In this document: one piece after another, positions 25,368 through 29,623 of the stretch
Layout of the letters: each line of letters begins with the position of its first letter
How positions within the stretch are numbered: the first letter of the stretch is position 1
NCBI RefSeq assembly: GCF_029643425.1
Contig: NZ_CP119106.1
Span: 2,170,001 to 2,234,000 of the forward strand
From: Isoptericola sp. AK164
GTDB lineage: Bacteria > Actinomycetota > Actinomycetes > Actinomycetales > Cellulomonadaceae
DNA length: 64,000 bases
Reading direction: 5' to 3'
Made by a program: the position numbers and the translations under genes
The notes under the pieces: model-generated
What the model was told of the DNA's origin: nothing
Seen by the model: the letters and a program-made list of their open reading frames with translations, nothing else
Database searches by the model: none

Positions 25368-26695
25368 ACGGCGTCCTTCTGGTCGTGCGGCACGAGGTCG
25401 TCGTCCTCGTCCGCTGCTGGTAGGGCGATCCGGCGCACCAGCAGGCTGGCGAGCTGCTTGCGGCGTCCCTCGACGCGCTCGGCCTCGAGCCGCAGAGCGC
25501 CGACGTCGGCCGAGGACCCGGCCAGCGGGACCTTGCCGAGGGCCTTGGCGAGCAGGCCGCCGGCGGTGTCGACGTCGTCGTCGTCGAGACGCAGGTCGAA
25601 CAGCTCGCCGAGCTCGTCCACCGGCAGGCGGGCGGGGATGCGCCACAGGCCGTCGCCGAGGTCCTCCGGCTCGGGCTCGGCGACGGTGTCGTGCTCGTCG
25701 GTCAGCTCGCCGACCAGCTCCTCGACGATGTCCTCGACCGTGACCAGCCCGGCGACGCCGCCGTACTCGTCGACGACGATGGCGATGTGCGAGCGGCGCG
25801 CCTGCATCTCGCGCAGCAGGTCGTCGGCCGGCTTGGACTCGGGGACGAACACGGCCTCGCGCGCCACGTCCCGCACGGGCCAGTCCGCCGCCCCGGGGTC
25901 GTTCTCGATCCGCCGGGCGACGTCCTTGAGGTAGACGACGCCGACGAGGTCGTCGACCGTCCGGCCCACGACGGGCACGCGGGAGAAGCCGGAGCGCAGG
26001 AACAGCCGCATCGCCTTCGCCAGCGACGTGTCGGTGCCGGTGGTCACCATGTCGGTGCGCGGCACCATCACCTCGCGGGCGAGGGTGTCGCCGAGCTGCA
26101 GGGCCGAGCGCAGGAGCTCGCGCTCCGGTTCCTCGATCGCCTCGTTCTCCCGGACGCGGTCGGCCATGTCCTGCAGCTCGTCGGTCTCCGGGATCGCCAC
26201 GTCGGCGGCGCGGTCGCGCCGCGGCACCCAGGACACGGCCCGGTGCACCACGGACAGCGGCCCGGCGAGCATCACCAGCGCGGTCGTCGGACGGTGGTGG
26301 GCCCACGTGCGCGGGCTGAGCCGCACCACGAGGATCCCCGCGAGCACACCGACCACGGCGGCCCCGACCAGCACCTCCCACCACCGGTCGAACCAGTGCG
26401 CGAGCAGCAGCGTGGCCGAGGCGACCGACAGGGTCTCGGCCAGCACGCGCACCAGCGCGAACGAGCCCGCGGCCCGGGGGTCGGCCGCGAGCAGCTGGGC
26501 CCGCCGCACGTTGCGCCGTCGACGCGGCCCGGGCGAGCCGCCGTGGGGTCCGGGCTCCTCGAGGGCGAGGGCCAAGGAGACCTTGGTGACCCGTTCGACG
26601 GCGGCCTCGCCCGCACTGAGCAGGGCGGACAGGCCGAGCGCCACGACGAGCACGGCCCACAGCAGCAGGTCGGGGACGTCCACCGCGCCGCTCAC
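25364..26695 (-). CDS. CNNM/CorC-type CBS-domain membrane protein
   Basis: Hemolysin-C/CorC family, probably Mg2+ or Co2+ efflux or its regulation. The 443 residues have an N-terminal DUF21-like membrane domain (about 1-180; [21 protein letters not shown]). Two CBS domains follow (about 205-325; [13 protein letters not shown] and the signature [20 protein letters not shown]). The C-terminal CorC/HlyC domain (about 340-420) contains [15 protein letters not shown]. The GTG at 26695 overlaps the ybeY stop (GTGA); an upstream extension inside ybeY is not needed. Confidence 0.92.
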
Positions 26696-27144
26696 CGCCC
26701 GGCCAGGAAGGTGAGCAGGAGCCGCCGCTGCAGCGCGAACATCTCGCGCTCCTCGTCGGGTTCGGCGTGGTCGTAGCCGAGCAGGTGCAGGATCCCGTGC
26801 GTGGTCAGCAGCAGGAGCTCCTCGACCGTGGAGTGCCCGGCGGCGCGGGCCTGGGCGGCCGCCACCTCGGGGCACAGCACGATGTCGCCGAGGGTGCCGG
26901 GCGGGGTCTCCTCGCCCTCGCGGCCGGGCCGCAGCTCGTCCATGGGGAAGGAGAGCACGTCGGTGGGGCCGGGCTCGTCCATCCACTGCACGTGCAGGTC
27001 GGTCATCGCAGCCGTGTCGACGAGCACGATGGACAGCTCGGCGGCGGGGTGGACGTGCAGCTCGTCGAGGGCGAACCGGGCCAGCGCGGCGAACTCGGCC
27101 TCGTCGACCTCGACGCCGGACTCGTTGTTGACCTCGATGCTCAC
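26692..27144 (-). CDS. ybeY: Endoribonuclease YbeY
   Basis: Zinc-dependent RNase for 16S rRNA 3'-end maturation and ribosome quality control. The 150 residues show [21 protein letters not shown] and the metal-binding signature [14 protein letters not shown] 27144 overlaps the PhoH stop by four bases, and the ybeY stop overlaps the CBS-domain gene in the same way. Size is normal. Confidence 0.96.
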
Positions 27145-29267
27145 CGGCGTCCTCCTCGGTCGTGGCGGCCGGGCCGACGGCGGTCGTCGGCCGGGCGGGT
27201 GCTGTCCCAGCGGGCGTAGGCGTCGACGATGTCGCTGACCAGGCGGTGTCGGACCACGTCGGTGCTGGTGAGCCGGCAGAACTCGACGTCGTCGACGCCG
27301 GTGAGGATGTCCTCGACCACGCGCAGGCCCGACGTGGTGCCGCCCGGCAGGTCGACCTGGGTGGCGTCGCCGGTGATGACCATCGTCGAGCCGAAGCCGA
27401 GCCGGGTGAGGAACATCTTCATCTGCTCGGCCGAGGTGTTCTGCGCCTCGTCCAGGATGATGAAGGCGTCGTTGATGGTGTTGTGCGTGACGAGGAAGTC
27501 GTCGGTGACGTAGAGAGAGTCCTCGGCGGCGACCTGGATGCACATCGTGTCCTGGACGCCCGCAGGCAGGATCGAGTCGACGGCGCGCATCGGACGTCCC
27601 CCTCCGAGCGCGGCGTACGTCCGCGCCTTGCGGGTGAGGCGGAACGGAGTGACGCCGTCGGGCAGGCGGATCTCGACGACGTAGGCGTCGCAGCGATACG
27701 GGACCGGTCGTTCCCTGGCCCGTCCGGGCTTCCGCCCCTCGGCCTCCCGCACGCGGGTCGTGGCGACACCACCGAGCGACCGGACGAGATGGACGACGTC
27801 GTCCCGGAGTCGGCGCGACGTGGTCGTGTACTGCACCCGGCAGGTCCGCCCGTCCTGCGTCACCGGTCCGCCGTCGGTGTCCAGGAGTCCCTGCAGGACC
27901 GCCAGGCGCACCTCGACGGCGTTGATCTTGTACGCCTCGGGCACGAACTTCGTGGCCGACTTCCGACCGTCGAGACCCAGCTCGCGCAGGATCGTCTTCA
28001 CCGGGTTCGCCACGATGACGCCACCGCGGTGCCCGTGGACGTGTCGCAGCACGTAGCCGTACTCCCCGTGCGGAACCAGCTCGATGTCGGGCAGTGCGGA
28101 CTCCAGGGCGTCGGCGAGCTCGGGGTCCGCCGTCGTGTACGACGGCGTCGCACGCGAGGAGAACGATCCGTCGCCGAGCATCAGGCCCAGCGCGTACGGG
28201 TCCATCGGCACGTCGCGCTCCGGCATCTCGACCGGATCGACGACGGGTAGTTCGAATCGGCGTGTGTGTCCGTACCACTCACGCCCGATCATCTCCTGCG
28301 TCTCCAGTGTCCGGCTCCGCCCCCGACGCTTGTCCGACTGGGTCCGGACGGTCCACAGGTGCTCGCCGCAGCAGACGGTCGACGACCCGTCCGACGCCGT
28401 CACCCGATAGGTCTGCTTCGGCCCCTGCGGGTAGATGCCGACGACGGGTGTCGGACGCCCGTCGGACCCCACCACCAGGTCACCCACCTGCAGCGATCCG
28501 AACGGTCGGAAGCCGTCAGGGGTCAGGACCTCGGCGTCGTAGGGCTGGGCACGGCCGCGCATGTACGCCAGCGGCGCGACCTCGATGGTGCCGGACTCGA
28601 CCAGCCGTGGGATCGCGTCGGGGTCGAGCATGTCGTGCAGCGCGTCGTACAGCGGCCGCAGGTACGGGTCGATCTTGTCGCTCAACGATCCGGGCAGGTA
28701 GCCGAGCTTCTCCCCCGCCTCGACCGCGGGCCGGGTGAGCACGATCCGGTTGATCTGCTTGGCCTGCAGCGCCTGCACGGCCTTCGCCATCGCCAGGTAG
28801 GTCTTGCCGGTCCCGGCGGGGCCGATGCCGAAGGTGATCGTGTTGGCCGCGATGGCCTCCACGTAGCGCTTCTGCCCGACGGTCTTCGGGCGGATCGTGC
28901 GACCGCGCCCGGAGAGGATGTCGTGGGTGAGCACCTCGGCGGGCCGCTGCGCGGCGGCGGAGGTCAGCATCGAGACCGAGCGGGAGACCACCTCGGGGGT
29001 CAGCGGGGTCCCGGCCTCGACGACCTCGACCAGCTCGTCCAGCAGGCGAGCCACCAGGGCGACGTCGCCGGCGGGGCCGTGGACGGAGATCTCGTTGCCG
29101 CGGGCGTGCACGTCCACGCCACCGAACCCGTCCTCGATCGCGCGGAGCACCGTGTCGCCGCTGCCCAGCAGCGCCACCATCGGCACGTGCGGGGGGACGA
29201 CGACGCGGTGCTCGGTGGCGTGCCGCGGGTGGTCGGTCAGGGGGCTGTCGGAGGCGGCGGACGTCAT
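27141..29267 (-). CDS. PhoH-family ATPase interrupted by an intein
   Basis: PhoH-like P-loop ATPase, probably linked to RNA metabolism through its ybeY neighbour. Without the insert it is 351 residues, normal for the family. The N-terminal extein has a KH-like part, [18 protein letters not shown], Walker [16 protein letters not shown] (about 149-163) and [18 protein letters not shown], ending APLAYMRGR at 239. The C-terminal extein resumes [14 protein letters not shown] with Walker B and [19 protein letters not shown]. The intein (residues 240-596) is in frame, so the precursor is 708 residues. ATG 29267 is used; ATG 29285 is possible. It overlaps ybeY. Confidence 0.93.
27480..28550 (-). mobile_element. 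Class 3-like intein with LAGLIDADG endonuclease domain in PhoH
   Basis: A 357-residue protein-splicing element between MRGR and TINDAF, just before the Walker B strand. It starts [13 protein letters not shown], so no Cys/Ser/Thr nucleophile is at position 1. Block B contains GEHLW (His 64, Trp 66), block F MCIQV (Cys 337), block G LVTHN (Thr 355, His 356, Asn 357), and the +1 residue is Thr. This fits the Trp-Cys-Thr signature of class 3 inteins. Two dodecapeptide-type motifs, [10 protein letters not shown] (121-130) and [10 protein letters not shown] (219-228), mark a LAGLIDADG homing endonuclease. All motifs are intact, so splicing and possibly homing are likely (inference). Confidence 0.9.
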
Positions 29268-29269
29268 GC

Positions 29270-29623
29270 TCAGGCGGGACTCCATCCCAGCTGGGTGCCG
29301 GCCAGGACGTGGCCGTGCACGTGGAAGACGCTCTGGCCCGCGCGCGGGCCGGAGTTGAAGATGAACCGGTACTGGCCGTCGGCCAGCTCGTGCGCCACGT
29401 TGTCGGCGACACCGACGACCTCGGCGAGCAGGTCCGGGTCGGCCGCGGCCAGGACGGACACGTCCCCGTGGTGCTCCTTGGGCACCACGAGCACGTGGAC
29501 GGGAGCCTGCGGGTCGATGTCCCGGAAGGCCACGACCCGGTCGGTGTCGGCCACGACGTCGGCGGGCAGGTCGCCGGCGACGATCTTGCAGAAGAGGCAG
29601 TCCGCCTCGGTCTCCGTCGTCAT
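29270..29623 (-). CDS. HIT-family nucleotide-binding protein
   Basis: Small histidine-triad hydrolase acting on nucleotide phosphoramidates or aminoacyl-adenylates. The 117 residues begin CLFCKIVAGDLPADVV, a Cys pair seen in zinc-binding HIT members. The active-site triad is QSVFHVHGHVLAG (HxHxH). ATG 29623 follows TAGCGT (29635-29630) by six bases, indicating a leaderless transcript. That promoter probably also reads the PhoH-ybeY-CBS-era run downstream, since phoH starts two bases after this stop. Confidence 0.94.
   Translation of the reverse strand: MTTETEADCLFCKIVAGDLPADVVADTDRVVAFRDIDPQAPVHVLVVPKEHHGDVSVLAAADPDLLAEVVGVADNVAHELADGQYRFIFNSGPRAGQSVFHVHGHVLAGTQLGWSPA

Follow-up and report, generated by a model that had tools for sequence, protein, structure and literature searches.

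Class 3 inteins are marked by a triplet of Trp B:12, Cys F:4 and Thr G:5 (PMC5222942, PMC5050341). Inteins of this class have already been published from mycobacterial PhoH proteins: those of Mycobacterium fortuitum and M. xenopi were aligned as class 3 (PMC6195587), and a further PhoH intein is listed for M. smegmatis (PMC7360933). The intein described here, found in a window of 64,000 nucleotides from Isoptericola sp. AK164 (the whole stretch of DNA that was analysed), is a further case, with the same host protein and the same triplet as its mycobacterial counterparts. Four Mycobacteriaceae inteins, aligned in place of the published sequences themselves, occupy the same point of PhoH and are 58-61% identical to that of the window. 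Our literature search on class 3 inteins and PhoH inteins brought up no published study of PhoH intein splicing.

For the structural side of the comparison, class 3 inteins of known structure include DnaBi1 of M. smegmatis and the DnaB1 intein of M. chimaera, both of which share the Trp-Cys-Thr triplet, the block B His and the terminal His-Asn with the window's intein (PMC6195587, PMC7664689). Their splicing half matches ours by sequence, while the host protein differs; moreover, the matched DnaB-type chains, at 139-146 residues, are too short to hold an endonuclease, whereas the window's intein has one. In block B, DnaBi1 has a DxxH motif where the window's intein has CxxH (PMC6195587). The class 3 inteins of phages, mycobacteriophages among them (PMC5050341), include full-length relatives, which sit in other host proteins (terminase, helicases) among the listed rows that we inspected.

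The phoH gene and its insert

What does the locus itself look like? From the letters alone, a sequence-only reading had proposed that PhoH is interrupted by 357 in-frame residues at 27480-28550, leaving a protein of 351 residues, and these coordinates proved exact: the insert measures 1071 bp, and there is no stop codon within its 357-residue frame (Table 1). It follows directly after the MRGR of PhoH, and the tenth residue past its end is the D of DEAQ, which agrees with the claimed position a few residues before this motif. The translation likewise contains the predicted Ala1, the block B sequence His64-Leu65-Trp66 (HLW), Cys337 within MCIQV and the terminal Thr355-His356-Asn357 of VTHN. The two LAGLIDADG-type motifs, which had been called intact, carry Asp127 and Asp226. 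The third-position GC content is 0.888 in the intein vs 0.966 in the exteins, and no second match to the PhoH intein occurs in its own genome at E <= 1.

The gene was also said to lie between a HIT gene and ybeY, and Pfam matches identify both neighbours as such. In the window, the order of transcription is HrcA, DnaJ, RNA methyltransferase, HIT, PhoH, YbeY, CorC-like and Era-like; no Rfam match reaches the gathering score within it. The literature describes YbeY and YbeZ/PhoH-like proteins as acting together in 16S rRNA biogenesis, and in many Terrabacteria their genes adjoin era (PMC10582724).

Table 1. Features of the phoH locus, in positions of the window
Feature	Positions	Strand	Details and evidence
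HIT-domain gene, directly upstream of phoH	29270..29623	-	Pfam HIT 2.5e-23
phoH precursor gene	27141..29267	-	ATG at 29267, stop ending at 27141; 708 aa with insert, 351 aa without; open-frame analysis; Pfam PhoH 1.3e-87
N-extein, 239 aa, with P-loop GPAGTGKT (Walker A)	28551..29267	-	translation
Predicted class 3 intein, 357 aa, Ala1 to Asn357	27480..28550	-	frame, Pfam, PDB matches, residue invariance
N-terminal splicing part, about residues 1-110, boundary approximate	28221..28550	-	PDB intein matches to residues 6-84; His64, Trp66 invariant
Cys61; His64; Trp66	28368-28370; 28359-28361; 28353-28355	-	in N-terminal splicing part
Predicted LAGLIDADG homing endonuclease part, about residues 111-309, boundaries approximate	27624..28220	-	Pfam LAGLIDADG_3 213-274; PI-SceI matches 118-270
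Asp127; Asp226	28170-28172; 27873-27875	-	in endonuclease part
C-terminal splicing part, about residues 310-357	27480..27623	-	Cys337, Thr355, His356, Asn357 invariant in 82/82
Cys337; Thr355-His356-Asn357	27540-27542; 27480-27488	-	in C-terminal splicing part
C-extein, 112 aa, first residue Thr+1, with DEAQ (Walker B)	27144..27479	-	translation
ybeY, directly downstream of phoH	26692..27144	-	Pfam YbeY 2.2e-38

A profile search of the insert, suggested beforehand for both the Hint and the LAGLIDADG domains, bore out the second and fell short for the first. LAGLIDADG_3 (E 1.6e-13, 51.1 bits, cut-off 22.5) and Hom_end (4.4e-5, 24.0 bits, cut-off 21.1) score above the Pfam cut-offs, in line with two intact motifs, but the splicing-domain models stay under theirs (Hom_end_hint 21.9 vs 32.1; Hint_2 15.1 vs 28.4), although inteins of solved structure do match. 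In the PDB, the splicing half matches the gp41-1 intein (1e-11) and, with E-values between 6.9e-6 and 3.8e-5, three chains named replicative DNA helicase. We take the PDB chains 6bs8 and 6rix/6riy to be the DnaBi1 and M. chimaera DnaB1 inteins. Residues 118-270 are matched by PI-SceI, which likewise holds a LAGLIDADG endonuclease inside an intein but splices by the class 1 route, with Cys1. For a set of 42 PhoH inteins (the window's and 41 chosen from 80 PhoH intein loci of genome contigs), Pfam at E <= 0.01 gave LAGLIDADG_3 in 42/42, Hom_end_hint in 31, Hom_end in 21 and Hint_2 in 18, and a profile built from this set matched gp41-1 (6.6e-17), PI-SceI (1.8e-13) and the three helicase-named chains (8.5e-9 to 4.6e-8). 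The class 1 model Intein_splicing had no match in the window's own genome; in a control it matched 6/14 genomes.

Class 3 signature, splicing and the alternatives

The triplet that defines the class corresponds to Trp66, Cys337 and Thr355 of the insert. We followed these residues through 82 PhoH inteins, comprising the 80 best-scoring of at least 346 relatives on genome contigs, the window's own and a Nonomuraea record, a set that is biased to intact copies because the best matches were taken. All three are invariant in 82/82, as are Asp127 and Asp226 of the endonuclease; His64, the terminal His356-Asn357 and Thr+1 are each kept in every copy as well. Each of the 82 is also flanked by MRGR and T[LI]N and lacks an internal stop, as checked by script, and their lengths range from 353 to 362 residues. 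Position 1 is Ala in 73/82, including the window's intein, which thus has no nucleophile there, and Ser in the remaining nine. These nine carry the Ser alongside the full class 3 triplet.

The invariance of the signature, the homology to solved inteins and the precise intein-free alleles described below support the proposed identification of the insert as a class 3 intein that carries a LAGLIDADG homing endonuclease and lies just before Walker B of PhoH, and suggest that it is genuine and probably active. Judged from these sequence comparisons, we put the probability at roughly 0.9 that it is a mobile class 3 intein, equipped with its own homing endonuclease, that both splices and homes in the core of the PhoH ATPase. 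By analogy with class 3 inteins and LAGLIDADG enzymes that have been characterised, Cys337 in block F would attack the Arg(-1)-Ala1 bond after translation and take over the N-extein, which would then be handed on to Thr+1. Asn357 would cyclise with the help of His356, and an acyl shift would join the exteins into a PhoH of 351 residues. At the level of DNA, the LAGLIDADG domain would cut intein-free phoH alleles around MRGR/(S or T)LN, and repair of the cut allele would copy the intein in.

Unspliced PhoH would presumably be inactive, and splicing could thereby serve as a switch of the protein. A conditional form of splicing, for instance one gated by redox state, in which a bond between Cys337 and Cys61 forms under oxidation and holds PhoH off until the cell is reduced, is however unlikely. 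What speaks for it is the residue itself, as Cys61, which opens the block B TxxH motif, is Cys in 77/82 PhoH inteins (Ser in 5/82), together with the precedent of DnaBi1, where the catalytic cysteine bonds another cysteine of the intein under H2O2 and splicing stops, and where the block B equivalent, Asp62, is described as lying near Ala1 (PMC6195587). On the other hand, the partner in DnaBi1 is another residue, Cys48; the intein is absent from 15 of 18 genomes of the genus; and a Cys at the position of Cys61 is not specific to PhoH, being present in 65/152 viral relatives among the matches listed (by regular expression, with the position not found in 4/152), which weakens its case as a PhoH-specific redox partner. 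Somewhat more doubtful still is the extended proposal that PhoH inteins act through Cys61 and Cys337 as a redox gate on ribosome maturation, leaving the partner of YbeY interrupted between its Walker A and Walker B motifs, while the one homing site in PhoH lets the element pass back and forth between phages and actinobacteria.

An intein-derived element that proceeds by another route, either class 2-like with Thr+1 attacking directly or mostly cleaving, we regard as very improbable. Inteins with a class 3 signature could use either route until their Cys F:4 has been tested (PMC5222942), but Cys337, Trp66 and Thr355 do not vary among the 82 copies, and the three such inteins assayed in that study needed Cys F:4. 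There is even less to be said for a decayed intein that has lost splicing and PhoH with it: one published class 3-type intein has been called a pseudogene (PMC3196547), yet here the frame is open, all signature residues are kept, and sequence constraint rejects a remnant. Compared with the 95% identical copy of I. sediminis, dN/dS is 0.08 in the splicing part, 0.03 in the N-extein and 0.027 in the C-extein. The endonuclease part, at 0.375, is under weaker constraint (Fisher p 0.035 against the splicing part, for nonsynonymous vs synonymous changes, from rounded counts), and its activity is therefore less sure. Finally, we give practically no credence to an additional normal domain of PhoH that is never removed, since the open frame, its sole recommendation, is outweighed by intein homology and by PhoH proteins of the genus that lack the insert and read through its exact point.

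Distribution and transfer of the PhoH intein

PhoH is present in 18/18 genomes of the genus. Three hold a full intein, namely the window's, one 95% identical and one 79% identical to it, and the other 15 have an intact, empty phoH site, with the frame reading straight through the insertion point and a +1 residue that is Ser in 12 and Thr in three. Thus, as expected of a mobile intein, the insertion is precise and in frame, and intein-free alleles exist; the comparison with close relatives that had been called for shows that the insert is not common to all of them. In the family, an intein match at E <= 1e-30 was found in 3 of the 221 genomes scanned for the intein. Four further loci of the same genus (L004, L007, L008, L016) show weaker, partial intein matches of about 33-36% in a DnaB-helicase-like protein, its start being judged by eye. 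In the genome of L007, three such matches lie inside one open frame of 1328 residues, and more than one intein is therefore likely there.

The history of the intein was compared with that of its host protein in quick trees, with groups named only after the first tree had been seen. In the intein tree (83 rows), the window's and two other Promicromonosporaceae inteins group with 15 from Micromonosporaceae (SH-aLRT 100), which bear Micromonospora and Verrucosispora titles; two further Micromonosporaceae inteins, from Symbioplanes and Paractinoplanes, fall apart from these 15. In the extein tree (80 rows, 3/83 being omitted as too short), the 17 Micromonosporaceae lie on one side of a branch (98), with the Promicromonosporaceae outside. 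On 32 chosen rows, holding all 17 Micromonosporaceae inteins together was rejected (p-AU 0.017), and so was holding together the exteins of the three Promicromonosporaceae-type and 15 Micromonospora rows (p-AU 6.6e-5); the intein thus has a history unlike that of its host protein, which is the second mark of a mobile intein. As a control, six Micrococcales rows were held as one clade, which was rejected for inteins (p 0.025) and exteins (p 0.0001) alike and is therefore uninformative about transfer; as the exteins, too, reject this clade, the extein tree departs from taxonomy in places.

The conflict between the two trees makes horizontal transfer between actinobacterial families likely, and pairwise identities agree with it: the window's intein is 78.4% identical to that of Micromonospora okii and 78.7% to that of Krasilnikoviella, the corresponding values for the last 160 residues of the N-extein being 73.8% and 90.0%. 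Within 30 bases downstream of the site, two bases separate the Micromonospora majority from that of the empty genus alleles; at both, the three intein-bearing alleles have the Micromonospora base. From 90 bases on, the flanks of the intein alleles are mostly genus-like (12-13/15, then 16-18/20). Few as they are, the two Micromonospora-like sites would be consistent with conversion over a short tract, or with selection for Thr+1.

Outside Actinomycetota, three bins labelled as Melainabacteria, Myxococcales and Truepera (L069, L082, L112) also hold PhoH inteins at this site, which may reflect binning error. The Nonomuraea record (L044, NZ_LT559118.1) is named plasmid I; at 11.85 Mb it is chromosome-sized and carries phoH, so that this label is probably wrong. 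A search of plasmids gave a full-length relative with 33% identity, carried by those of Enterobacter, Citrobacter, Klebsiella and an uncultured bacterium; in the record of the last, the place of the intein match is annotated traD.

Among viral relatives, a motif search found the same PhoH insertion site in one of the 152 loci among the matches listed. This locus (L208/L281) lies on a 100 kb IMG/VR viral contig and its intein is 49% identical to the window's; by eye, none of the neighbouring open frames of at least 100 aa gave a HIT- or YbeY-like product. A search of IMG/VR viral contigs with the junction pattern matched this contig and a second one of 65 kb (L280/L282), with a full-length intein, 39% identical, that has HLW, CQCISV and VTHN. 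Both contigs are metagenomic and classed as viral by IMG/VR. A single-sequence scan of viral contigs gave no confirmed relative. In phages, tblastn found full-length relatives with up to 42.1% identity among the 40 of 775 records listed; with the viral precursor as query, 4/1836 phage records cover at least 80% of it, none of them among the 25 listed, so that an isolated phage with this insertion may exist.

Several viral candidates lie elsewhere. The intein-bearing genes of Eggerthella phage LE2-3 and Caudovirales GX15bay are annotated PhoH, and their flanks are not MRGR/TLN; the match in Vibrio phage 1.244, its translation judged by eye, is not at the window's PhoH site either. In other viral contigs, genes that appear PhoH-type by eye hold class 3-type inteins at other points, directly behind the P-loop lysine in L137 and L166 and behind a YLPG motif in L177, and one viral relative (L141) has a stop codon within its intein frame.

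The window thus adds one more class 3 intein, apparently intact and equipped with an endonuclease, in an ATPase with a presumed role alongside YbeY in ribosome maturation. A phage origin of class 3 inteins has been proposed (Tori and Perler 2011, as cited in PMC5050341 and PMC6195587), and the two viral contigs, with their inteins at this same PhoH site, are consistent with it. Within Actinomycetota, the PhoH intein is a likely case of transfer between families, and a genus in which most sites are empty allows occupied and empty phoH to be compared in a natural setting.
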